In this document: positions 1,228-34,952 of the stretch, piece after piece
How the letters are laid out: every line of letters begins with the position of its first letter
Position numbering within the stretch: position 1 is the first letter of the stretch
From: a virus
Direction: 5' to 3' (one strand)
Virus record (IMG/VR): IMGVR_UViG_3300010885_048571
Span: 1-43,731 of that record
Length of the DNA: 43,731 nt
Notes under the pieces: generated by a model
The model's database searches: none
What the model saw: only the letters and a program-made list of their open reading frames with translations
What the model was told of the DNA's origin: nothing
Translations under genes and position numbers: made by a program

Positions 1228-3597
1228 CTATCTTGTAAATGATGTTTGTAATCCTCTAACTATAAATGATCCGGTTATTTTAAATGGATCGCTATCTATT
1301 GCTGGATCTCTTACCACTATTCCTTCTTGTTGATCTACTGGACCTAATGGAGAAGTCATTGATTTTAATAAAGCATCTCCAAGTTCCATTGTAGCTTCGT
1401 AAATTACAAAAGAATCTATCGCTGTTTTTTGATCTTTAGGATTAGCAATTAATTCTGTTATTGGTGTTCCATTTTTAATGGCTAAAAACACTTGTTTACT
1501 TAATGCGTCAACAGTTTTACCGTCTTTTAGCTTTATTCTTAGTCCTTTTGTATTTTTAGCCTCATTTAACCAAGCTTTAAGTGATTTAGTTTGTTTATTA
1601 TTTTTGTCTACTACTACAGTATAGTTTTTAGATAGCGCCGCAGCAAAGTTTGGTGTTTTTTCTATCTTAGCCGGTATAGAAGATAGCACTTCAAATCCAT
1701 ATTTTTTAGCTATTGGCTGTAATTTTTTTATCATATCTTCTAATACATCTTTTGAATAGGGTATTTCGTGGGTAGATCTTGATTGCTTACCAGGATTTTG
1801 AGAAATTTCTATTAAATTGTGTATAGCTAGAAAGTTTTTACCATATTCTTGTACATTTGTTTTTCCTTCTACGTACTCAATGTTAAGAAGTATGTTAGGA
1901 TTTTTAATCATTCCCAATTTAGCTAAATCTCCTTTTATTACTGGATATGCTGTATTGAAAATATCTAGTACTTTGCCGCCTATTTTTATCATGCCATGGC
2001 CAGGAGTCGTAAATCTTGCAGGTAAATCAGCTTTCGTAATGCCTTTAATGTCTATTTCTTTACTAGATCCTCTATCGAGTACAAACTCTCTTTTTCCGTC
2101 TATATTACCGAGTCTTATCGCTGCATTAACTCCATCTATTTTTACTGGTGCGGGGTTTTTTGTAAGAAATTTAGCAGTTTGTTCAAATATTCTAACTAAA
2201 TCATTACCTGTTTTTACCTTATCTAAATCAAATGGATGAGCCATATGGCCACCAGCTCCGCCTTCCTTTAACAATCCTTCATTTAGCGTTAATCCCTTTT
2301 TTTCAAAATCAGATTGCGCTTGAGCTATTAGGTCTTTGTAATCTTTTCTATTTTTTATTATATCTATTATAGATTCTACGTCAGCTAAATCTTTGCCTGT
2401 AGCGTTTTTACTTAGTAGTAGTTTGGCTATTTCGTCAGGATTTTTAGTTAATGTTTTATTTGTTTCTCTATCCACTAATCCATTTAGATAAGACCATTTT
2501 AATCCTTGCGCTTTAGCTATAGACGCCATTAATAATGCTCTGTCAACTCCTTTAAATGTAGAATTTTCTCGTCCTCCTTGCATACTAAATTTTAGCCAAT
2601 CTTGATCTCCAAACATGAAATCAGTTTGAACAAATCCATTTTTTGGATTACCATTAATAGGCGTTTTTAAATGCACATTATTACCACTTTTTTTAATATC
2701 GTTCTTAGAAAATTTATTTAGTAGTAAAGAAACTAATTCATCTTTAGAAATTTCTTTTTCATTTACTCCTAAATCTAAATCACCACTAGTATCTTTTCTA
2801 CCAGTAGTGCCTAGCATATTATCTACTAAGTTTAGCGCAGTTATTTTCTCTAAATATTTTACAGTAGGAATTACGTCAGCTCTATTTATTCTTTTCGTTG
2901 CTTCTTTTCCGTTTTCATCCTTAAATACATTTCCACCTTCCATTAATAAGGCTTTAAAAAGAGAACTTAATATAGTAGTCTCTTTTAAAGGTTGATTAGA
3001 AAACTTTTGTTTCATTAATCTGGCTAGCTTTTCATCCCACCATCCAAATATACCTTCAAAATTTTTCTTATATTGTGCAGCTGTAGTTGGAGATGATAGC
3101 GCTGCTCTTATATTTGTACCACTCATTTCGCCGATTCCAGGAATATTATATGATTTATGAGGAGCTACAATTAAATATCCATGTTGAAGATATGATTTCA
3201 TTGGTTTATCAGGATCATACTTTTGAAAATAAGAATCTGTACCATCTTTTTTCTTTCCTATTACAAATCTAGGATCTTCTTGCATGTCTTTTTTACCAAC
3301 CATAAACACTACTGCTGTAGTCTTAGGATCATATTTAGCAGTAATTTCTTCTGCTTTATATGGATTTTTAACTTGAATTAAGTTATTTCCAAATCCATAT
3401 TTTGATATGATAGCTTGTTTTTCTTTAAAATTTAATGGACTATTAGGCAATTTAACGTTATCTGACGTCGCTATGAATGTATCTTTTGCTCCAAATTTAG
3501 ATTGTAACCATTTAAAAGTATCAGCATGATGCTTACCAAATGGCTGAAAACGACCTGGGTATATTGCTACTACGGTTTTTATCACATTAAATTCCAT
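1228..3597 (-). CDS. Three-module protein: cytidylyltransferase-like, polymerase-beta-type nucleotidyltransferase-like and ATP-grasping ligase-like domains
   Basis: A 789-residue protein with three readable modules. Residues 1-200 look like an HxGH-type nucleotidyltransferase: PGRFQPFGKHH near residues 14-24 and SGTNIRAAL near 160. The classical HxGH is altered to GKHH. Residues about 210-440 contain DTSGDLDLGV (near 269), the acidic pair of the polymerase-beta-like nucleotidyltransferase fold. Residues about 445-789 resemble a covalent nucleotidyl-ligase: KIDGVNAAIR (near 487, KxDGxNxxxR motif I), an EYVEG segment (near 570) and EGIVVRD (near 758). Related T4-like phages carry cytidylyltransferase-like proteins with similar N-terminal motifs. 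RNA or nucleotide end repair, or NAD-type chemistry, is possible but unproven. An ATATTTATT element lies 12 bp upstream. Confidence 0.7.
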   Translation of the reverse strand: MEFNVIKTVVAIYPGRFQPFGKHHADTFKWLQSKFGAKDTFIATSDNVKLPNSPLNFKEKQAIISKYGFGNNLIQVKNPYKAEEITAKYDPKTTAVVFMVGKKDMQEDPRFVIGKKKDGTDSYFQKYDPDKPMKSYLQHGYLIVAPHKSYNIPGIGEMSGTNIRAALSSPTTAAQYKKNFEGIFGWWDEKLARLMKQKFSNQPLKETTILSSLFKALLMEGGNVFKDENGKEATKRINRADVIPTVKYLEKITALNLVDNMLGTTGRKDTSGDLDLGVNEKEISKDELVSLLLNKFSKNDIKKSGNNVHLKTPINGNPKNGFVQTDFMFGDQDWLKFSMQGGRENSTFKGVDRALLMASIAKAQGLKWSYLNGLVDRETNKTLTKNPDEIAKLLLSKNATGKDLADVESIIDIIKNRKDYKDLIAQAQSDFEKKGLTLNEGLLKEGGAGGHMAHPFDLDKVKTGNDLVRIFEQTAKFLTKNPAPVKIDGVNAAIRLGNIDGKREFVLDRGSSKEIDIKGITKADLPARFTTPGHGMIKIGGKVLDIFNTAYPVIKGDLAKLGMIKNPNILLNIEYVEGKTNVQEYGKNFLAIHNLIEISQNPGKQSRSTHEIPYSKDVLEDMIKKLQPIAKKYGFEVLSSIPAKIEKTPNFAAALSKNYTVVVDKNNKQTKSLKAWLNEAKNTKGLRIKLKDGKTVDALSKQVFLAIKNGTPITELIANPKDQKTAIDSFVIYEATMELGDALLKSMTSPLGPVDQQEGIVVRDPAIDSDPFKITGSFIVRGLQTSFTR

Positions 3598-23646: not shown

Positions 23647-25311
23647 ATGAGTAGGTCTAAAAACACAATTAGGTTTTCGGACTTCTCAACGATTCCGATA
23701 AAGCTGAAATATACGTCTTCGTACACTAGCTCATCTTTAAATGCAGCTGGGATTACGATATATTCAGGAAATAATGGTGCAGTTAATATTTCTGGATCAG
23801 TTGAAAAAACTACGGTTAATTATATTACTACTAGACATTTATACTATAGTAATTATTTAACTGGGTCTAATCTTACCACAACTTCTAGTTATGATAATTT
23901 TTTGCAGTCAAGTGCTGCATCTGGATCTAATGACTGGGACAATAGATATTTTCCCACTGAATCTAATTCACAGATTAAAGTAATATCTATTCCAAGACAG
24001 GTTTACGGAGAAAGAATTTCTAGAGGTGGATTTTATATGTCCTCATCAGCTTATCAAATTATAGACGATGGCAATGGAAATGTAATAGATAGTAAAATAT
24101 CAAATACTCACGTAGGAAACATAATATACGGACAAGGAATAGTAGTGGTTACCAACCAAGATTACATCAATATATTTGATTTACCTACAACCACTACAAC
24201 TAGTACAACTAGTACAAGTACAACGATAGTGCCAACCACAACCAGTACGACTACAAGCACTAGTACTGCAGCGCCAACTACTACAAGTACGACAACGTCA
24301 ACTACTACGCCGACGCCTACAACGACGTCTACTACTACCAGTACAACTACGCCTACTCCGACTACTACTAGCACGACAACTAGTACAACTACGCCAGTAC
24401 CAACTACGACGTCTACTACTACCAGTACAACTACGCCAGTACCAACTACTACTAGTACAACGACTTCGACAACAACAATACCTCCAACAACTACTAGTAC
24501 AACGACTTCGACTACGACTCAAGCGTGTACTACATATACATGTACAAACAATGATTCAGGTCCAAGATCATTATCATATATAGATTGTAATGGTACCACA
24601 GTGAGCTATCCAAATGTAGGATCTGGTGTTACAATTGGACCTTTTTGCGCACAAAATGGAACATTGACCTTAGGAGCGCCATCTCAATGGACAGTTAATA
24701 ACCTTGGATCATGTACTACGACTAGTACAACAACATCAACAACAACAACAGTACCTCCAACCACGACGTCTACTACGACTAGTACAACTACATTGACACC
24801 AACCACAACTAGTACAACGACTTCTACTACTACGCCAGTGCCGACTACTACAAGTACGACAACGTCGACTACAACAGTACCTCCAACCACGACGTCTACT
24901 ACTACCAGTACAACTACATTGACACCAACCACAACTAGTACAACGACATCAACAACAACAGTACCTCCAACAACAACGTCGACTACTACTAGTACGACCA
25001 CTCCGGCTCCTACTACGACTAGTACAACAACGTCGACTACAACACCAACACCAACTACTACTAGTACCACAACTAGTACTACTACGGCGGCACCAACATA
25101 TTATTATTATACAGGAAATTATACCCCTGATTGCGCTGGATTTACTGCAATGGGAGTTGTAATTAGAGCAACAGTAAATTCTTTAACAAATGGTAACTAT
25201 ACTAGAGTAATAAACAGCGCAAGTGGATGGTTCTACATTACTGCCCCTAACCCAGGAACTAGTTATACTTACGAATCAGATGACAGTCAAAATGTTTCTT
25301 GTGGATATTAA
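23647..25311 (+). CDS. Mucin-like Thr/Ser/Pro-rich virion protein (likely glycosylated fibre or decoration)
   Basis: A 554-residue protein. Residues 1-178 are a structural N-domain. Residues ~179-290 and ~356-482 are two mucin-like tracts of 14-residue units (two variable residues, P, then TTTSTTTSTTT), seven units in the first and eight in the second. Between them a small cysteine-containing domain has CTTYTC, YIDC, FCA and GSC; a C-terminal domain also has two Cys. Dense Thr/Ser with Pro is the classical O-glycosylation substrate. The next four genes are sugar- and methyl-transferases. Virion location is inferred from the preceding fibre genes. Confidence 0.7.
   Translation: MSRSKNTIRFSDFSTIPIKLKYTSSYTSSSLNAAGITIYSGNNGAVNISGSVEKTTVNYITTRHLYYSNYLTGSNLTTTSSYDNFLQSSAASGSNDWDNRYFPTESNSQIKVISIPRQVYGERISRGGFYMSSSAYQIIDDGNGNVIDSKISNTHVGNIIYGQGIVVVTNQDYINIFDLPTTTTTSTTSTSTTIVPTTTSTTTSTSTAAPTTTSTTTSTTTPTPTTTSTTTSTTTPTPTTTSTTTSTTTPVPTTTSTTTSTTTPVPTTTSTTTSTTTIPPTTTSTTTSTTTQACTTYTCTNNDSGPRSLSYIDCNGTTVSYPNVGSGVTIGPFCAQNGTLTLGAPSQWTVNNLGSCTTTSTTTSTTTTVPPTTTSTTTSTTTLTPTTTSTTTSTTTPVPTTTSTTTSTTTVPPTTTSTTTSTTTLTPTTTSTTTSTTTVPPTTTSTTTSTTTPAPTTTSTTTSTTTPTPTTTSTTTSTTTAAPTYYYYTGNYTPDCAGFTAMGVVIRATVNSLTNGNYTRVINSASGWFYITAPNPGTSYTYESDDSQNVSCGY
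24183..24516 (+). repeat. 42-bp coding minisatellite, first block (about 7 units)
   Basis: Tandem 42-bp units encode x-x-P-TTTSTTTSTTT. The units differ mainly at synonymous third positions (ACT, ACA, ACG and ACC all occur) and at the two residues before the Pro (IV, AA, PT, PV, IP). Unit number could change by slippage or recombination. Confidence 0.9.
24712..25089 (+). repeat. 42-bp coding minisatellite, second block (about 8 units)
   Basis: Same 14-residue unit as the first block, with VP, LT, PV, PA and PT variants; a VPP/LTP pair of units recurs within the block, as if pairs were duplicated. It starts right after the cysteine-containing domain (GSC) and ends at AAPTYYYY. Confidence 0.9.
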
Positions 25312-25340: not shown

Positions 25341-26300
25341 ATGAAAAATTTACGTTATATTTGTGTTCAACCACGCATATTATATTATGCGTGGCAGGTA
25401 GAAGTTATGATTAATAATTTCATAAAACATGGAATTAATCCTAACAATATAGATATTCTAATTGCGTGGAATTCTAACGATAAAACATCAGACCCTGATA
25501 ATGTAGAAGCATGGAATAAGCTAGCTTCTCACTATAACTCGGTTAGGTTTTTCTTTTATCAGGATACTAGAAAGAAACCTATTCATTACATTTCATCTGT
25601 TAGACCTAACGTTCTAAAGCAACATTTTAAAGCCTATCCAGAATTAAAAAATGAAGCCATCTTTTATCATGACTGTGATATAGTATTTACAAAAAAACCC
25701 GATTTTAATAAATTTTTGCATGATAATATTTGGTATTTAAGCGATACTAATAGTTACATTAATTCAGATTACATTAAATCGAAAGGTCATGATGTATATA
25801 ATAAGATGTGTGAAATAGTAGAAATTGATAAATTGATACCCAAATTGATGAACTCCAACTCAGGAGGTGCTCAATATCTAATGAAAAATGTAGATGATCT
25901 ATATTGGGAAAAAGTAGAAGAAGACTCTGAGCAACTGTTTTACCAAATAACAGAACTAAATAAAGAAAAAAAAGCAAACGATCCTTCATATCATGAACTA
26001 CAGATTTGGTGCGCTGATATGTGGGCAGTATTATGGAATGGCTGGTTAAGAGGAAATGAAACTAAAGTTGTGCCTGAATTGGATTTTAGTTGGGCCACAG
26101 ATGCCGTAGACCAATGGGATAAAACTGCCATATACCATAATGCAGGAGTTACCTGTTCTTGCGGAAGACAATTCTATAAGGCTCAATACATGGATAGTTT
26201 ACCTTATGATATAGATATAGAAAATTTTACTAGCCAAAAAAATGGATATAATTACGTTAACGAAATAAAAGAAACCGCAAAAAAATCATGTTTAATATGA
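25341..26300 (+). CDS. Glycosyltransferase (GT-A type, DxD)
   Basis: A 319-residue protein: a Rossmann-like N-terminus (residues 1-60), then AIFYHDCDIVF near 107-117, a DxD-type site (DCD) for a metal and nucleotide-sugar, and a later SGGAQYLMK and YHNAGV typical of GT-A acceptor-side segments. No transmembrane segment, so it is cytoplasmic. It starts 29 bp after the mucin-like gene and is the first of four genes with overlapping starts. It would transfer a sugar to protein or glycan; acceptance of the Thr-rich tracts is inference. The GTTATG start context (ATAGTTATG) is shared with other genes. Confidence 0.78.
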   Translation: MKNLRYICVQPRILYYAWQVEVMINNFIKHGINPNNIDILIAWNSNDKTSDPDNVEAWNKLASHYNSVRFFFYQDTRKKPIHYISSVRPNVLKQHFKAYPELKNEAIFYHDCDIVFTKKPDFNKFLHDNIWYLSDTNSYINSDYIKSKGHDVYNKMCEIVEIDKLIPKLMNSNSGGAQYLMKNVDDLYWEKVEEDSEQLFYQITELNKEKKANDPSYHELQIWCADMWAVLWNGWLRGNETKVVPELDFSWATDAVDQWDKTAIYHNAGVTCSCGRQFYKAQYMDSLPYDIDIENFTSQKNGYNYVNEIKETAKKSCLI

Positions 26301-26878
26301 TACAAGAAATATACAACAACAAACCAGAGTCGATTCATGATGTTATACCAAGTGAATTTTTTACAAAATATGATTCTTATGATTATGTATGGAGTGGTAA
26401 TTGTTTTGAGTGGTATTGGGCGTTAGGAAAAACACTTAAACCAAAAACTTTTTTAGAAATTGGAATAAGATTTGGGTTTAGTTTTTTACCTACCATTCAA
26501 GCCTCTTCTGATCTAGAATACGCTTTAGGCTGGGATCTAGAAACATATGGTAATAATAATATCGCGAATGAAAACATAGGTAAATACTATACAGGAAATG
26601 CTAAGTGGGAAATATTTCATATAGATTCTCAGTTAGAAACAGAATTACCACAATTTTTTGATTTAATTTCTATTGATGGATGTCATGATTATGACTGTAA
26701 AGTACATGATTTAAAATTATGTATAGATAAATGTAATTACGTTATACTGGATGATTACGATTATCATGTGGATGTAAGAAATGCAACTGATTTTTTCTTA
26801 AATGAATATAAAGATCACCTTGAATGGAATCAATATATTCCAACTTTTAGAGGATCTCAACTTATTAAATTTAAATAA
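26297..26878 (+). CDS. Class I SAM-dependent methyltransferase-like protein
   Basis: TFLEIGIRFGFSF is the SAM-binding motif I, and FDLISIDGCHDYDCKVHDL ... YVILDDYDYH gives the downstream strand and acidic residues of a Methyltransf_24-like fold. I chose the ATG at 26297, which overlaps the previous stop as ATGA like its neighbours (193 residues); an ATG at 26288 is also possible. Sandwiched between glycosyltransferases, it may O-methylate sugars or act on the same substrate. Confidence 0.7.
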   Translation: MIQEIYNNKPESIHDVIPSEFFTKYDSYDYVWSGNCFEWYWALGKTLKPKTFLEIGIRFGFSFLPTIQASSDLEYALGWDLETYGNNNIANENIGKYYTGNAKWEIFHIDSQLETELPQFFDLISIDGCHDYDCKVHDLKLCIDKCNYVILDDYDYHVDVRNATDFFLNEYKDHLEWNQYIPTFRGSQLIKFK

Positions 26879-27501
26879 TGGAGAAAATAATTCATCAGAT
26901 ATGGGTAGGAGATTTTAAAATTCCTCATAGAGAACAAGAATTAAGTAATAGTTTAAAACAACTTCACTCTGATTATAATTATATCTTTTGGACTTCTGCT
27001 CCGGAATTACCTAGCAACATCCAGTATTGGTATGATATATTTTATAAAAATAAAAACTACGTATTTTGCGCAGATTTATTAAGATTATGGGTAGTATACA
27101 AATATGGGGGATTTTATTTAGACATAGATTTTAATATTAAAAATAGATTAGATCCATTATTTGATCACGAATCTGTATTTTTTTATCATAATGATACAGA
27201 CTATACTATTCCAAACAACTTAATTGCGTCAACTAAAGGGTCACCTATCTTAAAATATTGTTTAGATAATGTAAAAACAGATTGTAGTTGGTACGGTCCA
27301 AGTTGGCTAGGGCAAACAATTAAAAACTATTTAGAATTACCTTACGAAATACCGCAACAGCCCGTAATGAAAAAATTAAATTCTTTGAATATTCATTATC
27401 ATGAATACTACGCGTTCGAAAATATATATGGTAAACATTTGTCTCTATATAGTTGGGAACCTAAAACATGGGAAAGATTAAATAAAAATGAACAATTATG
27501 A
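26878..27501 (+). CDS. GT32-type glycosyltransferase
   Basis: This 207-residue protein shows the GT32 (Och1/capsular mannosyl-type) pattern: IIHQIWVGDFKIP at the N-terminus, FCADLLRLWVVYKYGGFYLDIDF near residues 63-85 with the DID metal site, and a later WLGQTIK. This compact family needs no transmembrane helix. It overlaps the preceding stop by one base (TAATG) and the next gene by ATGA, so the cassette is probably translated as one unit. Good confidence for the family; acceptor unknown. Confidence 0.85.
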   Translation: MEKIIHQIWVGDFKIPHREQELSNSLKQLHSDYNYIFWTSAPELPSNIQYWYDIFYKNKNYVFCADLLRLWVVYKYGGFYLDIDFNIKNRLDPLFDHESVFFYHNDTDYTIPNNLIASTKGSPILKYCLDNVKTDCSWYGPSWLGQTIKNYLELPYEIPQQPVMKKLNSLNIHYHEYYAFENIYGKHLSLYSWEPKTWERLNKNEQL

Positions 27502-28286
27502 AAAAAGTAAGTTTTGTCTGCACAACATATAGAAGATTCACGTGTGTGGAAAGAATAGTTGCTCAATACTATGAGCAGACTTATAAGAATAAAGAATTAA
27601 TTATATTCAATACAGATATGGAGTATCCATATTTTACCAATATAGAAGATCCTTCAATTATTATTGTTAACAACAATACAGACTACATCACATCAGAATC
27701 GTATAAGAATCGAGGTCAAATATGTAGAGACGCCATAATCCACGCAACTGGTGATTATTTTATGCTTGCCGATGATGATGATATCTATTTGCCATGGCAT
27801 CTACAACAAGCTGTAGATGGGATAGTTGATAATCAAAAAGACGCATGGAAGCCAGAGAGAAGTTTCTTCGCTACCCAACATAAATTAGAAATGTGTCAAA
27901 ATACTTTAGAAGCCAGTGTTATTGTTAAAATGGATAGGATTAGGGAAATAGGATTTAGAAGTGATTTAACAGGATACGAAGGATTAAGTTGGTATACTAA
28001 ATTAAGAGACGAAGGAAATCTAGATGAACACAATAAAAATTATGTTCCATCCTATTGTTTTAATTGGTCTGATCCATCTGAAGTGGCAGGGCATAAGCAA
28101 AGTGGAGATATAAATAATCCTAATAATTTTGATAATCACAAAGAAGCAAGTAGAGATTATGCAACAAAAGAATTATCATTAGTGTCTATTGGAGATACGT
28201 ACACTAAATATTATGACTATCTAAGAAATAATCTCAATGAATTTAATCAAGCGTATTATACAAAATACGCCAGTCAATATTTATAA
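27498..28286 (+). CDS. GT2-family glycosyltransferase
   Basis: KKVSFVCTTYRRF at the N-terminus of this 262-residue protein is the first strand of the GT2 GT-A fold, followed by the NTD... segment and YFMLADDDDIYLPWHL, the DXD-like metal site. It is a soluble inverting-type enzyme of the sort that builds surface glycans in bacteria and phages. It is the last of four overlapping genes (ATGA with the GT32 gene). Together the cassette could attach a short oligosaccharide to a virion protein. Confidence 0.85.
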   Translation: MKKVSFVCTTYRRFTCVERIVAQYYEQTYKNKELIIFNTDMEYPYFTNIEDPSIIIVNNNTDYITSESYKNRGQICRDAIIHATGDYFMLADDDDIYLPWHLQQAVDGIVDNQKDAWKPERSFFATQHKLEMCQNTLEASVIVKMDRIREIGFRSDLTGYEGLSWYTKLRDEGNLDEHNKNYVPSYCFNWSDPSEVAGHKQSGDINNPNNFDNHKEASRDYATKELSLVSIGDTYTKYYDYLRNNLNEFNQAYYTKYASQYL

Positions 28287-29754: not shown

Positions 29755-30756
29755 TTAATACATGAGACTTCTGTATTGAATGGTCTCTAAGAACTGGTCT
29801 TTATTATCACCTAAACTAAAGTTATCTGGGAAAATCCATGTGTAAGGAATGTTCTTAGTTGGTTTCTTTTCTCCGTGAGAGATTGCAATATGCTTCCAGA
29901 AAAAACAAGTTTTATCCTCGATGTTTAAATACTTCTGGCTAGTCATTGGGTTCAATGGGTGATTGACTAATAGATCCATCTGATATAACCATTGCTCAGC
30001 CTGTTTGTTATTAGGGATGAAGTCCCCAGACTCATTAATTGTATACTTAACTTTACCATTTAGATTCTGTCCACCGAATACTTGATGTAGACCATCAAAG
30101 TGACCTGTACCACCAAAAAGAATTGTTTCTGGATTCACCAAATGTGGATAACTCATTGCAATGTATCTAGCTGTATTTTTACAAGGATATAAAGGACTTC
30201 TAAAATTTTGATGCTCTTTAAAATACTTCTCAAGAATCTTAGCGAATTCCATCATTGTATACGGCCCACGTTTACCATCTTCTACATCTTGTAAAACGTA
30301 AGCTAAATTTTTAGCAGCAACTGCAGTACCGTGAAGCAGCCAATGTTTAACGTTTGTGCCTTTTGGATAATAAATCTGAAACAGATCGTTTCTTGCGTGG
30401 CGATTATGTTTAAAGTGATCTTCCATTGCTGGAATATTATTACCAACCAATTGCTTGAATGTGCCCCAATGTTCGTTACTAAAACTAAACACTAGGGTAT
30501 AGAACATTCTTAACTCATTGTCTGTAACTTTATCTCGCATAAAATAACAGTACGGATGTTCGTGCCAATGTAAACGATGGGAAAAGATTTGATACTCGTC
30601 CTTTAATAATGTATCCTCTCTTCGATCAAACTTTTGGCAGAATTCAAAGAACTTTTCAATTCTCTGTTCTAAAGGCCATTGTGCCATCCAAGAGTCTTTG
30701 GGTTTTTTACCTTTAAACTCTGGCGTGCATGTGTCATTATAAAAAATATTTTCCAT
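29755..30756 (-). CDS. Putative thymine-hypermodification amino-acid:DNA transferase-like protein (second paralogue)
   Basis: A 333-residue all-helical protein that I read as a distant relative of the alpha-glutamyl/putrescinyl-thymine pyrophosphorylase / amino-acid:DNA transferase group described in phages with hypermodified thymine. Features are WLLHGTAVAAKNLAYVLQD, then RSPLYPCKNTARYIAMSYPHLVNPETILFGGTGHFDGLH. The helix layout parallels the upstream 389-residue protein. It is the third gene of a coupled operon, its ATG overlapping the previous TAA. Family assignment is by eye; the amine substrate and the chemistry cannot be read. Confidence 0.5.
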   Translation of the reverse strand: MENIFYNDTCTPEFKGKKPKDSWMAQWPLEQRIEKFFEFCQKFDRREDTLLKDEYQIFSHRLHWHEHPYCYFMRDKVTDNELRMFYTLVFSFSNEHWGTFKQLVGNNIPAMEDHFKHNRHARNDLFQIYYPKGTNVKHWLLHGTAVAAKNLAYVLQDVEDGKRGPYTMMEFAKILEKYFKEHQNFRSPLYPCKNTARYIAMSYPHLVNPETILFGGTGHFDGLHQVFGGQNLNGKVKYTINESGDFIPNNKQAEQWLYQMDLLVNHPLNPMTSQKYLNIEDKTCFFWKHIAISHGEKKPTKNIPYTWIFPDNFSLGDNKDQFLETIQYRSLMY

Positions 30757-30757
30757 A

Positions 30758-31927
30758 TTAAATGTATAGTGCGTTAACTTTTTCTTTGTATTGCTCTTCT
30801 GTAATTAACAATGATTTAATCACTTTATCATCAGATGGGTGCCCTGACATGCCATTAAAACTTGGAACTAGATTTAAATCTAACATTGCTTTCTGTCTGC
30901 CATAAGGATGGTCTTTAATAGAAGAGCTATTCCAAACGTGGTCAAAATCTAAATGATCATAATCCCCACCGGGCTTGACAAAATTCTCAATCCACCTAAT
31001 AGAGTCACATGCTACGTCCTCAGCATTATAAGGAAATGAACCTGTGTCTTCGTAGATTTTCATCATTACTGAATCTAAGTAGACTTCTTTTTGCATCTTA
31101 GTAGACTTTGTAGCAAGATACCCAATACACTCAATAGCGTTAGTACCGTAATAGAAAGGACTCTCACGGTTAACAAAATCTGGGAACCAATCGGCAATAT
31201 CTGCAATCACTGCTGCGTATTGAAATCTAAACGCTCTAAGTCCTCTGTTTGTATTCCACTTAAACATGAAATCACCAACTTCACGTAAATCTTTTTTATC
31301 TCCATTTTCTAAGAAATAAGCCAGATCGTAAGATAACTGTGGTACATATTCACAAAGAAAATAATCTCCGCCTCTTTTATAACCTTCAATTGGTTTAGGA
31401 AAACTTGGAAACTGATAACCTACAGACGTGTAGAAAGTTCTCTTCGTACCTTTAATTACTTCTACCATTTGATCGATGTTATCTGCCACATGCATATCTG
31501 ACAACAAAGTATTATAATATCCAGAAGGTTTATAAGCATAATTAATTCCAGATCCAGTTAATCTGTGAAATAAGAATAAATACAACCACTCTTTTAAATC
31601 AAATGTCTGTCTTTTACCTACCCAATTTTGAGAAATAGTTTCTCTTTGTTTAGTCATTAAACCCTCCTTCATCTTATTCCAATACGGGTGATCTTCGCTC
31701 CAACCGTAAAATACGTCATTTACTATTTGGGAGAATCCCGCATATTTCCTCTCTACTACATCGTACAATTCAACGTGCTTCATTAGATCGTCTGGTACAC
31801 TGGATTCAGAGTGCTTTAATCTACCCAAGTTACATTCTTCTTGTTGAGTTTTGGCCATTTGGAAATAGCGAAGGAACTCATCGTAATATTTAGTGGTCTT
31901 TATCCACTTTGGATTTGCTGTTACCAT
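30758..31927 (-). CDS. Putative thymine-hypermodification amino-acid:DNA transferase-like protein (first paralogue)
   Basis: A 389-residue helical protein with LFHRLTGSGINYAYKPSGYYN, CEYVPQLSYDLAYFLENG and FRFQYAAVIADIADWFPDFVN ... SPFYYGTNAIECIGYLA. I associate these with the pyrophosphorylase/amino-acid:DNA transferase proteins of hypermodifying phages (families predicted to replace a pyrophosphorylated 5-hydroxymethyluracil substituent with an amine). Its ATG lies inside the last codons of the MBD4-like gene (TGGTAA read as ATGGTAA), so the two are translationally coupled. Alternative: an unrelated helical DNA-binding protein. Confidence 0.55.
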   Translation of the reverse strand: MVTANPKWIKTTKYYDEFLRYFQMAKTQQEECNLGRLKHSESSVPDDLMKHVELYDVVERKYAGFSQIVNDVFYGWSEDHPYWNKMKEGLMTKQRETISQNWVGKRQTFDLKEWLYLFLFHRLTGSGINYAYKPSGYYNTLLSDMHVADNIDQMVEVIKGTKRTFYTSVGYQFPSFPKPIEGYKRGGDYFLCEYVPQLSYDLAYFLENGDKKDLREVGDFMFKWNTNRGLRAFRFQYAAVIADIADWFPDFVNRESPFYYGTNAIECIGYLATKSTKMQKEVYLDSVMMKIYEDTGSFPYNAEDVACDSIRWIENFVKPGGDYDHLDFDHVWNSSSIKDHPYGRQKAMLDLNLVPSFNGMSGHPSDDKVIKSLLITEEQYKEKVNALYI

Positions 31928-32697
31928 GTTGTTTCTAATTGTCTTTTTGCTTCTAGTCTATTTTTTACTAATTGTGCTTGTTCTCTGTAATAATCTGGAT
32001 CAGTTTCCATCCATTTTTCTTCATTAATCCATTCCTCTCTAGCGAATCCTATACCCGCTATCTTGATGTGCTTTGCTCCCGGTTGATTTAGAGCGATCTT
32101 TTTGGTTTTTTCTATTGCTTCTTCTTGAGTTCTAGCGGTTACCACACACACATAATCTTTGTATTTCATCCAATTTGGCTCAGCGAATCTTGCATCTTTA
32201 TAATGCGCGTAATACACTGAATAAGCTTTCGGTGTTCCCTGCTCCCTTAGAAGTCTCTTTTTCTCTTCCCTTGCCCATTCCACATAGAAATTAAGTACAT
32301 GATCTTCTGGATCTACTTCGTATTCAAATAATTGAAATATCTTCCAAGAATCTAGAGCATATTTACCAACGCCTTTCATCTTCTCTATAGCACTTACAGG
32401 AATGTATAAGCCATTACTGTATTTGTCTACTGCGTCTCTCCATTGATAAGCAAATTCTTTCCATGCTTTAACTCTACGGTTATAGAACCCCAAAGGTTTT
32501 ATAATTTGAATGATCTCATCTTCAGGACAATCTATTAGACTTTGAGCATCTGGGCACTTCATAAAGAAATGCTCTCTGACTTCGTCTACTTGCCTGTGGT
32601 GGGTTTGATTCAACATAAAACAGACGATCAACATTTTAAATGGATCATCTCGGTATTCTTCCTGTCTTGTTAAATAAGGCGAAGTAGGTAATCTCAT
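31921..32697 (-). CDS. MBD4-like HhH-GPD DNA glycosylase-type protein
   Basis: Residues 15-150 of this 258-residue protein follow the glycosylase domain of MBD4: DPFKMLIVCFMLNQT, IIKPLGFYNRRVKAW, a helix-hairpin-helix IEKMKGVGKYALDSWKIF and VDPEDHVLNFY. The aspartate at about 132 matches the MBD4 catalytic Asp, so it appears catalytically competent. MBD4-type enzymes remove thymine or modified pyrimidines from mispairs. The C-terminal ~95 residues are an added, unassigned domain. It heads a three-gene coupled operon with the transferase-like genes. GTTATG start context (AAAAGTTATG). Confidence 0.82.
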   Translation of the reverse strand: MRLPTSPYLTRQEEYRDDPFKMLIVCFMLNQTHHRQVDEVREHFFMKCPDAQSLIDCPEDEIIQIIKPLGFYNRRVKAWKEFAYQWRDAVDKYSNGLYIPVSAIEKMKGVGKYALDSWKIFQLFEYEVDPEDHVLNFYVEWAREEKKRLLREQGTPKAYSVYYAHYKDARFAEPNWMKYKDYVCVVTARTQEEAIEKTKKIALNQPGAKHIKIAGIGFAREEWINEEKWMETDPDYYREQAQLVKNRLEAKRQLETTW

Positions 32698-32805: not shown

Positions 32806-33096
32806 TTATCTACTTATGTATGGAATTAATGCGTCTTTAACAAATTGCAAAATCTCTTTAGGAGAAAAACCATCATCTATTAAATTTTCTACAGCTCTAG
32901 AAATTGCTAATCCACCCAAGTCCATAAAAAGATCATTATCATCATCTAATTGATCCTGTTCTTTTACTGGAAATTCTTTATCTCCCAATTTAAAAGAGTC
33001 TTTACCTGCTTTCTTCGCTTGTAGTGCTGCGTAATCAAATGCTGATCCTTCTTCCATGTCCTCTAAGAGTCTTACTAGTTTAATGCTTTTTTCCAT
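32806..33096 (-). CDS. Small protein with capsid-targeting-like N-terminus and helical C-terminal module
   Basis: I start the gene at the ATG at 33096 (96 residues), not further upstream: the 13-mer ACACCACAAATAA sits one base before this ATG, exactly as at 33772. The N-terminus, MEKSIKLVRLLEDMEEGS, matches the shared peptide. The C-terminus (LGGLAISRAVENLIDDGFSPKEILQFVKDALI) is related to the end of the 254-residue protein at 34188-34952. Small, acidic, helical. Possibly a head-internal protein; unproven. Confidence 0.65.
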   Translation of the reverse strand: MEKSIKLVRLLEDMEEGSAFDYAALQAKKAGKDSFKLGDKEFPVKEQDQLDDDNDLFMDLGGLAISRAVENLIDDGFSPKEILQFVKDALIPYISR

Positions 33097-33112: not shown

Positions 33113-33772
33113 TTATTTAATTTTTTTTCTGTATGTATATTCACTTACCGCTATATGAATTTCTCCCTTATAATTATGTCCAAAGTGTAACACTTCATTT
33201 TCATTATCATGAAATAAAGCATCAAATATCGCTTGATTAAAAAAGAAATCATTATCTTGCTTAGTAGTTAGAAGCCCATCATTTGTAAATTCTAAAGCCT
33301 TTTTTTTAGAATTAGTCCAACTTTGAATTGGAGATCTTCCAATATATTCTAATGGAACATTACAATATAAATAATCTTCTCCATCTAGATACATTTTTTT
33401 CCAATTACTCTTATCTAATTTGACTTTTTTTAATTGAGTTATTGTATTATCACTAATGTTTTTAATCCCTCTGTATAGAATTGTTCCATTTGGTGTTTTT
33501 GGTAGAAAAATTTTAGGAAATTTAGATCTTAATTCGATTATATCTTTTTTAATTGCGTCTAATTCATCAGAGGCCCATTTTTGAGAGACAGGATCTCTTG
33601 TCCAAAAATCTAATGCTTTTAATAATCTTTTTTCAAACGCGGTATCTGGTTCAGATCCCAACTTTGCTTTTTGTAGCTTAGCAAATATAGGATCGTCATC
33701 TTTATCACCTAAAATAATATTCCCTACTCTATCATCATAAGTTTCTTTTAGAAGACTAGATAATGTAATCAT
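33113..33772 (-). CDS. Putative head-packaged ADP-ribosyltransferase with R-S-E motif
   Basis: From the ATG at 33772 the protein has 219 residues. Its N-terminus, MITLSSLLKETYDD, fits the shared capsid-targeting-like peptide with a cut after LLKE. The rest carries the three marks of an R-S-E ADP-ribosyltransferase: R101 in ILYRG, S151-W-T in IQSWTNSKKKALEF, and E191-N-E193 in NENEVLHF, with VIP2/ExoS-like spacing. T4 packages the ADP-ribosyltransferase Alt in its head and injects it to modify host RNA polymerase; this could be an unrelated analogue. The upstream frame to 33799 is open, but the 13-mer points to 33772. Confidence 0.68.
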   Translation of the reverse strand: MITLSSLLKETYDDRVGNIILGDKDDDPIFAKLQKAKLGSEPDTAFEKRLLKALDFWTRDPVSQKWASDELDAIKKDIIELRSKFPKIFLPKTPNGTILYRGIKNISDNTITQLKKVKLDKSNWKKMYLDGEDYLYCNVPLEYIGRSPIQSWTNSKKKALEFTNDGLLTTKQDNDFFFNQAIFDALFHDNENEVLHFGHNYKGEIHIAVSEYTYRKKIK

Positions 33773-33773
33773 T

Positions 33774-33786
33774 TTATTTGTGGTGT
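33774..33786 (-). promoter_or_regulatory. ACACCACAAATAA leader element, copy 2
   Basis: Identical to the copy at 33098-33110. Here it also encodes the last codons and stop of the upstream 136-residue gene, and it ends one base before the ATG at 33772. Confidence 0.5.
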
Positions 33787-34184
33787 CTTTGTTTTGCATT
33801 ATTTATGTACATATCTAATAAAGCTTCTGGTCCTGCTTGAAGGTTGCCATCTGCTTTTGGATCTTTTACCAATTTCTCTATAGCATGGACTGTCTCCATA
33901 CAGTGTTTCTTAATTGTTCTATCACTATGGCCAGCGTCTACTAACTTACATATAACATCATACAGTCTTGCACCTCCTTCAGCCCAGAACTCACCTCTGA
34001 TCATTATGTCGGCTTTATCGTAATCTACTCTGTCCCACTCAGGATCAGCCTCTTTTATGAAATACTTCTGTGCATAATTGTTGTCGTAAGTATTACCACC
34101 TTTTTCATCGTATTTGAAAGTCTTGCCCCAAAATTCGTTATTGTTTTCTTTTACGTGTTTTACTATGTCAAAGTTATCTTTCAT
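33774..34184 (-). CDS. Hypothetical protein, helical
   Basis: I start at the ATG at 34184 (136 residues); the frame can be extended one codon to a TTG that abuts the preceding stop. The sequence is acidic and Asn-rich at first, with a C-terminal helical region (YDVICKLVDAGHSDRTIKKHCMETVHAIEK) whose pattern recalls the modules ending the proteins at 32806 and 34188. It ends in KQRHHK, encoded by the 13-mer. Likely translated with the ADP-ribosyltransferase-like gene (1-bp gap). Function unknown. Confidence 0.6.
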   Translation of the reverse strand: MKDNFDIVKHVKENNNEFWGKTFKYDEKGGNTYDNNYAQKYFIKEADPEWDRVDYDKADIMIRGEFWAEGGARLYDVICKLVDAGHSDRTIKKHCMETVHAIEKLVKDPKADGNLQAGPEALLDMYINNAKQRHHK

Positions 34185-34187
34185 CAA

Positions 34188-34952
34188 TTAAAATCTCTCG
34201 CCCAATCCAGCCCTTTTTTCATGTTTTGCATTTCTGATAATCTTCTTACAAAGATCCATAATTTCTATAGGGTCAAAATCATTATCCATTAAACTAATGA
34301 TACCTTTCTCGATATTGTCACCTCCTAAACCCATTATTCTATCATCTTGAGCCTCAATATCTGGATCATCCATACCTTCTTCTTCTTCAAACATCTCGCC
34401 ATGAATGTCTTTTCTTTTACTTTCTAAGTACTTTTTAATGATAGGATAAATAGTTTCCGCGTACTCTTGAAAAGATACAAATTCGTCTTGTTTTTCTACG
34501 TAAATCATGTCTGTATCTGGATCGCCTTCTGCAAAAATGGCTTCAATCGGGGTCCCAGGTTGACCATCCCATTTAGGTGTAGCTGCAAAGAACATGTCTT
34601 GTTCTGCGCCTTGTTTATTCCAAGTTATAATTCCTGGCTCTTCAAAGCTAACGATGAATTCGCCTACTTGTTCTGCGTCTATGTCTTGCATCCAAGCATT
34701 ATCTTGCGCGTACTCTTCATCTCCTTGAGGAGAGTTATATATTTTATTTGGCTCAGGTTTTTTAGGACCTAAGTAGGTTTCATCATCTTCTGTTAATGAA
34801 TTAGTATATCCACTAAAAGGATTTCCACCTCCAACTGGCATTAAATCAATATAGTTTTCTTTTAGGTTAGTTTTTTTCTTAGTGGATTCTTGGATCATTC
34901 CGTAAGGACCTGCTTTTGTATCCTTTAAAAACTTTTTAATGTCAAATGTCAT
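34188..34952 (-). CDS. Acidic hypothetical protein with capsid-targeting-like N-terminus
   Basis: A 254-residue, very acidic protein starting MTFDIKKFLKDTKAGPYG, a weaker version of the shared N-terminal peptide; MIQES and NLKEN further on also fit an (I/L/M)-x-E processing pattern. The middle contains DAEQVGEFIVSFEEPGIITWNK and a beta-rich stretch. The C-terminus (MGLGGDNIEKGIISLMDNDFDPIEIMDLCKKII) matches the small protein at 32806. Preceded by an ATATTTATT element. Head-internal location is inference. Confidence 0.6.
   Translation of the reverse strand: MTFDIKKFLKDTKAGPYGMIQESTKKKTNLKENYIDLMPVGGGNPFSGYTNSLTEDDETYLGPKKPEPNKIYNSPQGDEEYAQDNAWMQDIDAEQVGEFIVSFEEPGIITWNKQGAEQDMFFAATPKWDGQPGTPIEAIFAEGDPDTDMIYVEKQDEFVSFQEYAETIYPIIKKYLESKRKDIHGEMFEEEEGMDDPDIEAQDDRIMGLGGDNIEKGIISLMDNDFDPIEIMDLCKKIIRNAKHEKRAGLGERF

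Follow-up and report, generated by a model that had tools for sequence, protein, structure and literature searches.

Does a fragment of a T4-like phage encode an ADP-ribosyltransferase (ART) that is carried in the phage head and delivered to the host together with the DNA? The question is raised by a small protein, here called P0001, whose gene lies in the IMG/VR virus record IMGVR_UViG_3300010885_048571. The whole 43.7-kb record was analyzed and is referred to as the window; it encodes a primase along with baseplate proteins resembling gp6 and gp25. A sequence-only reading of the locus had proposed that P0001 has the R-S-E layout of ARTs, and that its first ten residues, MITLSSLLKE, which it shares with other proteins of the window, fit the processing rule of T4 prohead protease targets, making it a head-packaged analogue of T4 Alt. 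Our analysis indicates that P0001 is probably a compact ART effector that is packaged in the head via MITLSSLLKE, trimmed, and injected into the host. Within the phage collection, Flavobacterium phage immuto is the named phage closest to the window, with 44% identity across the gp6-like protein, followed for this protein by a Microcystis phage with 43%. Because the nearest named relative is immuto, the host is likely a member of the Bacteroidota.

The R-S-ExE motif in P0001 and its relatives

The open reading frame (ORF), its start, and the residues R101 (LYRG), S151 (SWT), and E191/E193 (ENE) are as previously described; the strand, which had been left unstated, is the minus strand (Table 1). 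The order of these residues is that of R-S-E class ARTs, which have an Arg on the first core strand followed by Ser(-x-Thr/Ser) and Glu-x-Glu. A loose R...S...ExE pattern is frequent, being present in 52 of 926 proteins of 150–450 residues from the phage group, and is thus by itself no proof of an ART. A tight form of the pattern was found in a single one of the 926 proteins, namely P0001, as well as in 3 of 4,630 shuffled proteins and in 5 of 20,000 shuffles of P0001. Since this pattern was fitted after P0001 had been seen, the real test lies in the relatives.

With P0001 as the sole query, viral contigs, genome contigs, and the phage collection yielded no relatives. When records of related phages were searched, a first relative emerged, the 257-residue protein of L162 in G021 (MKHIQLFEEFINE...FYRG...FTSLT...EYEVL), and the tag survey described below added a third group with six members (L345 and L450–L454; MIKLLDILRE...FWRG...QSFSA...GNEGEVF). 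These sequences were compared in a leave-one-out ranking of 32,600 ORFs, with profiles from which the tags had been removed. Using a profile of the L345 group, L162 (E = 0.2) and P0001 (E = 0.4) ranked next, and a profile combining the L345 group with L162 retrieved P0001 with E = 4.7e-6, the next other ORF having E = 0.06. BLASTP of P0001 against the L345 protein gave E = 2e-5 (as a single comparison), with a match that spans from ahead of the Arg through the ExE. In an alignment of seven sequences from the three divergent homologous groups, R101, G102, S151, E191, E193, and V194 are invariant, and P0001 also keeps a DFF-x-N...NE-x-EV segment. A match of L162 to DUF7798 fell under the family cut-off and was set aside, and matches of the L162 protein to 50 large tagged records were mostly confined to the tag.

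Structure prediction, which had been suggested as a check on the ART fold, gave a usable model for the L345 protein (predicted local distance difference test [pLDDT] 73, predicted template modeling score 0.70). The model contains a strand with R73 (residues 70–78), a strand with S114 (residues 113–116), a helix (residues 119–129), a strand comprising residues 144–152, and a strand (residues 178–181) that begins at the second Glu of the ExE, E178. This fairly confident model has the strand order of ARTs, and its core strands bear the R, the S, and the ExE. In a Foldseek search against the PDB, ARTs (ART toxins) accounted for 8 of the top 24 matches, all of which are weak (E > 0.4). The search against the BFVD viral library returned a Mimivirus protein (1e-4) and then phage proteins, several of which are named ADP-ribosyltransferase or head-morphogenesis proteins. 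Judging from its sequence, P0001 is probably an ART-family protein, and catalysis is predicted from the conserved residues.

The N-terminal peptide and the proteins that carry it

The first ten residues of the T4 internal protein IPIII are enough for packaging. Among them, residues 4 and 7 are important in targeting and residues 8 and 10 in processing, and gp21 cleaves after L/I-x-E (PMC9026906). MITLSSLLKE has L4, L7, L8, and E10 at these four positions, which were mapped by mutagenesis (PMC9026906), and resembles the T4 sequence MKTYQEFIAE in its length of ten residues, its key positions, and its L/I-x-E ending. The fit to the processing rule that had been claimed thus extends to the T4 register. 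Control sequences from T4 (NC_000866) are MKTYQEFIAE (IPII and IPIII), MAKINELLRE (gp24), and MELITELFDE (Alt). The frame of P0001 is also open for nine codons further 5' (MQNKDTTNK-MITL...), and the second ATG, which gives the MITL... start, immediately follows the stop codon of the upstream gene.

The claim that other proteins of the window share this type of N-terminus was borne out: the tag pattern occurs in 3 of 58 window genes (Met within the first 25 residues), compared with 0 of 196 internal Met (p = 0.011). In relatives, the corresponding numbers are 20 of 1,619 gene starts and 3 of 6,439 internal Met, an approximately 27-fold difference with p = 1e-11, a value that is optimistic because related genes are not independent. 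The pattern was composed after the peptides had been seen. Among 28 related records, mostly fragments, seven encode an S77 (gp21-type) prohead protease (E ≤ 2e-23). Such a protease is also annotated in the cultured relative immuto, which has tagged genes of its own (protein starts MISIYNILKE, MENFDLKKFLVENKLT, MRLLELLRE, and MKKSQLRQIIKE).

Scanning IMG/VR with the pattern MKHI(K/Q)LFE(E/Q)FxNE gave 119 stretches, and at least 120 stretches were found for MIKLT-type tags. When the tagged bodies were clustered without their tags, the matches listed formed 159 clusters with two tag types; among these matches, 7 of the 159 body clusters have both tag types, one in a given phage and the other elsewhere. 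The tag is thus common to unrelated bodies, as for a capsid-targeting sequence. The ART family itself occurs with three N-terminal tags (MKHIQLFEEFINE, MIKLLDILRE, and MISQLNEVQKLQKIAGILKE). Clear homologues at L085:13950-14330, L093:4166-4546, and L277:2516-2896 (YIEDITPxESDxPDYFID) carry differing tag types, a clean tag swap. Two further N-terminal motifs, F(D/N)LKKFLxENKLTxNS and QKLAGIxKE, noted at L456 8632-9932, window 34188-34952, and L114:6734-7832, recur on many proteins and may be additional packaging tags.

A Pfam scan of 94 tagged representatives showed single members matching Tad3 (5e-20), Nudix, zeta-toxin-like, SET, PAP2, cytidylyltransferase, and GNAT families. One representative matched Acb1 under the cut-off (4e-5), and two were KptA-like, the one checked being under the cut-off. 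In G066 and G071 (L459, L460), a tagged Tad3 (anti-Thoeris) gene, MKTVKLFEEFLAE, is located two genes from an Acb1-like gene, within a run of tagged genes. The Acb1-like gene (MKHVKLFEEFVTE in G066) encodes a tagged 2H protein, whose likeness to the Acb1-like protein of L250 was judged by eye. This run is a candidate injected counter-defence operon. A Tad3-like open frame in G106 lacks the tag, so Tad3 as such does not include it. A tagged SET-domain protein at L337:2792-3592 on the minus strand (Pfam SET 2.6e-8) ends in a C-terminal region whose LYHKTSTQRGLDIIKSNLL stretch has an ART/KptA-like look.

Proposed role, alternatives, and known systems

By comparison with T4, MITLSSLLKE would dock P0001 to the prohead core, a T4-gp21-type protease would trim the protein after L-K-E10, and the trimmed enzyme would travel in the head and enter the cell along with the DNA. 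The catalytic residues suggest that it would then spend NAD+ (nicotinamide adenine dinucleotide) on modifying a host macromolecule, or strip NAD+, acting early in infection and ahead of phage gene expression. Host RNA polymerase might be the target if the precedent of T4 applies. We infer both halves of this reading, ART identity and head packaging, and both are supported by the findings described above.

Several observations weigh against this reading. The model of P0001 itself is unusable (pLDDT 42), so that convergence of its R, S, and E in one NAD pocket is a prediction, and the structure matches of the homologue are weak. Relative to both homologous groups, P0001 lacks approximately 25 residues between the helix that follows the Ser and the ExE, and the absent segment includes a predicted core strand of the relatives, IPVVIGVEY, ahead of the ExE. 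The search of family libraries that had been suggested for P0001 gave no Pfam, PHROG, or PDB-sequence match (PDB profile included), and a PF03496 search across 28 related records found none. Alignment of profiles with hhalign linked P0001 neither to T4 Alt (probability 0.1%) nor to ModB, which is weak evidence given the shallow profile; "analogue" is therefore the right word for the relation to Alt, with homology not established. Finally, the 43.7-kb window, itself a fragment, showed no prohead protease.

Because the model of P0001 is unusable and the deletion covers a core strand, we label P0001 an ART-family protein with activity unproven. The same two observations favor a reading in which P0001 is derived from an ART and is packaged and injected, while being catalytically dead or altered through loss of the core strand, and serves as a decoy or as a binder of NAD/ADP-ribose signals. 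We consider this unlikely, because the R, the S, both Glu residues, and the DFF-x-N...NE-x-EV segment are kept, which would not be favored under relaxed selection; moreover, the ORF is intact, and the sequence LLTTKQD could be a shortened replacement strand. As to the origin of the missing strand, a frameshift was considered; all three frames were checked, and none supplies the segment. That the R-S-E layout has arisen by chance and P0001 is not an ART would agree with the frequency of the loose pattern and the lack of a matching database family, yet the tight pattern is unique among the 926 proteins, the motif is invariant across three groups, and the homologue has an ART-like model and ART-enriched structure matches, which together make this explanation very improbable.

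The ART assignment could also stand with the peptide having some other common function: it might direct proteins to a different phage structure or compartment, provide a context for translation initiation, or act as a chaperone site. The lengths of MKHIKLFEQF-type and MIKLTDLL-type peptides, which are about three residues apart, speak for this, as does a literature search in which no paper printing the MKHIKLFE peptide turned up. However, the peptide agrees position by position with the T4 sequence and ends in I/L-x-E, an S77 protease is present in relatives, and the cargo includes counter-defence proteins and NAD/ADP-ribose-type enzymes, as expected for injected proteins. We therefore find a non-packaging role distinctly unlikely and retain the reading of P0001 as a head-packaged ART effector.

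T4 Alt resembles P0001 in having an R-S-ExE triad (LYRSQ / FVSTS / EMEV in Alt) and a short N-terminal propeptide that follows the L/I-x-E rule, in a T4-like phage group with an S77 protease. Unlike P0001, Alt has 682 residues and a different genome context, sequence kinship is undetected, and RNA-polymerase targeting is a feature of Alt. The T4 internal proteins IPI, IPII, and IPIII (tag MKTYQEFIAE) have a tag of equal length with the same spacing (hydrophobic 4, 7, and 8; E10), and they too combine one tag with unrelated bodies and have a hypervariable cargo locus. These proteins, found via their leader, are anti-restriction proteins that inhibit Type IV restriction (PMC12373910), whereas the body of P0001 is that of an ART, and the wider phage group to which the window belongs has a far larger cargo repertoire. 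Packaging and injection have likewise been inferred for Alt/VIP2-type and MuF-fused phage ARTs, in that case from fusions and gene context; the text of that survey mentions neither an N-terminal targeting sequence nor Bacteroidetes phages (PMC9503650). The signal of P1 DarB (PMC9024508) likewise lies at the N-terminus and guides proteins into heads, but it is longer (between 9 and 30 residues are needed) and lacks a consensus among Dar proteins.

The view that phage ARTs are often packaged is already established by T4 Alt and the survey PMC9503650, and the capsid-targeting sequence has been suggested to be a general device of T4-like phages (PMC9026906). What appears new in the literature searched is the ART family of P0001, the forms of the tag, and the breadth of its use outside T-even phages. 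We lean toward a wider reading in which head cargo is modular throughout a large group of T4-like phages whose hosts are probably Bacteroidota, with short interchangeable N-terminal tags by which many unrelated enzymes would be loaded and injected. On balance, this system would seem to cover ARTs and KptA-like, Nudix, Acb1-like, Tad3, SET, and kinase-like proteins, serving counter-defence and host takeover before transcription. If so, injected effectors could be mined from genomes by the tag alone. Earlier work, relying mainly on fusions and gene order, had proposed that contractile-tailed phages commonly package ARTs; a tag that can be read from sequence across >100 unrelated families in uncultured phages would make injected proteins predictable from genomes and testable in one cultured phage. 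That both Tad3 and the Acb1-like protein bear the tag points to delivery, alongside the DNA, of proteins that act on immune signals.

Cargo slot and other genes of the window

In relatives, the cargo slot lies between an MKDNFDIVKHV-type gene and the HhH-GPD gene, and its tagged contents vary. The slot holds MKKNIILKSLLEE in L082, MKKNITLKSLLEE in L117, MAKIKLTDLIKES in L088 and L105, and, in the window, the ART gene and MEKSIKLVRLLEDMEEGS; the content in L085 is included in Table 1. Because the content differs among relatives, the slot looks like an exchangeable cargo locus.

Table 1. Positions of P0001, its key residues, and neighboring or tagged genes in the window
Feature	Position	Strand	Basis or remark
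P0001, ART-like protein, 219 residues	33113..33772	-	ORF, homologue alignment
N-terminal tag MITLSSLLKE of P0001 (putative)	33743..33772	-	Spaced like the T4 capsid-targeting sequence, with hydrophobic 4, 7, 8 and E10 as predicted L-x-E cleavage site
R101 codon of P0001 (LYRG)	33470..33472	-	Invariant in 7/7 aligned sequences
S151 codon of P0001 (QSWT)	33320..33322	-	Invariant in 7/7
E191-N-E193 (ExE) of P0001	33194..33202	-	Both E invariant in 7/7
Neighboring tagged protein MEKSIKLVRLLEDMEEGS...	32806..33096	-	Resembles tagged MKKTIKLKSLLESMEEGS... in the equivalent slot of L085
Neighbor MKDNFDIVKHVKENN...	33774..34184	-	Kept beside the cargo slot in L085, L088, L105; possible further tag variant
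Neighbor MTFDIKKFLKDTK..., N-terminus of FD-x-KKFL type	34188..34952	-	N-terminal type recurs, both among relatives and in the cultured Flavobacterium phage immuto
Tagged protein MAIKLTDLIKEA..., 187 residues	29162..29725	-	
Tagged protein MIKLTKILQEIG..., 160 residues	41859..42341	-	
HhH-GPD protein, edge of cargo slot	31921..32697	-	Conserved anchor for synteny

Three adjacent conserved genes at 29755-32697, one of them encoding the HhH-GPD protein, were found in dozens of related contigs; we take them to resemble thymine-hypermodification enzymes. The N-terminus of a 789-residue protein at 1228-3597 (VAIYPGRFQPFGKHH) looks like a nucleotide adenylyltransferase, and an immuto gene in a like region is annotated as nicotinamide mononucleotide adenylyltransferase; for these reasons, NAD metabolism may be linked to ARTs in these phages. 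A tail-region protein at 23647-25311 has long TTTST/PTTTST repeats, and the opposite strand forms a valine-rich ORF. Amid the tail genes, at 25341-28286, there are four genes that by eye appear to encode sugar- or methyl-transferases.
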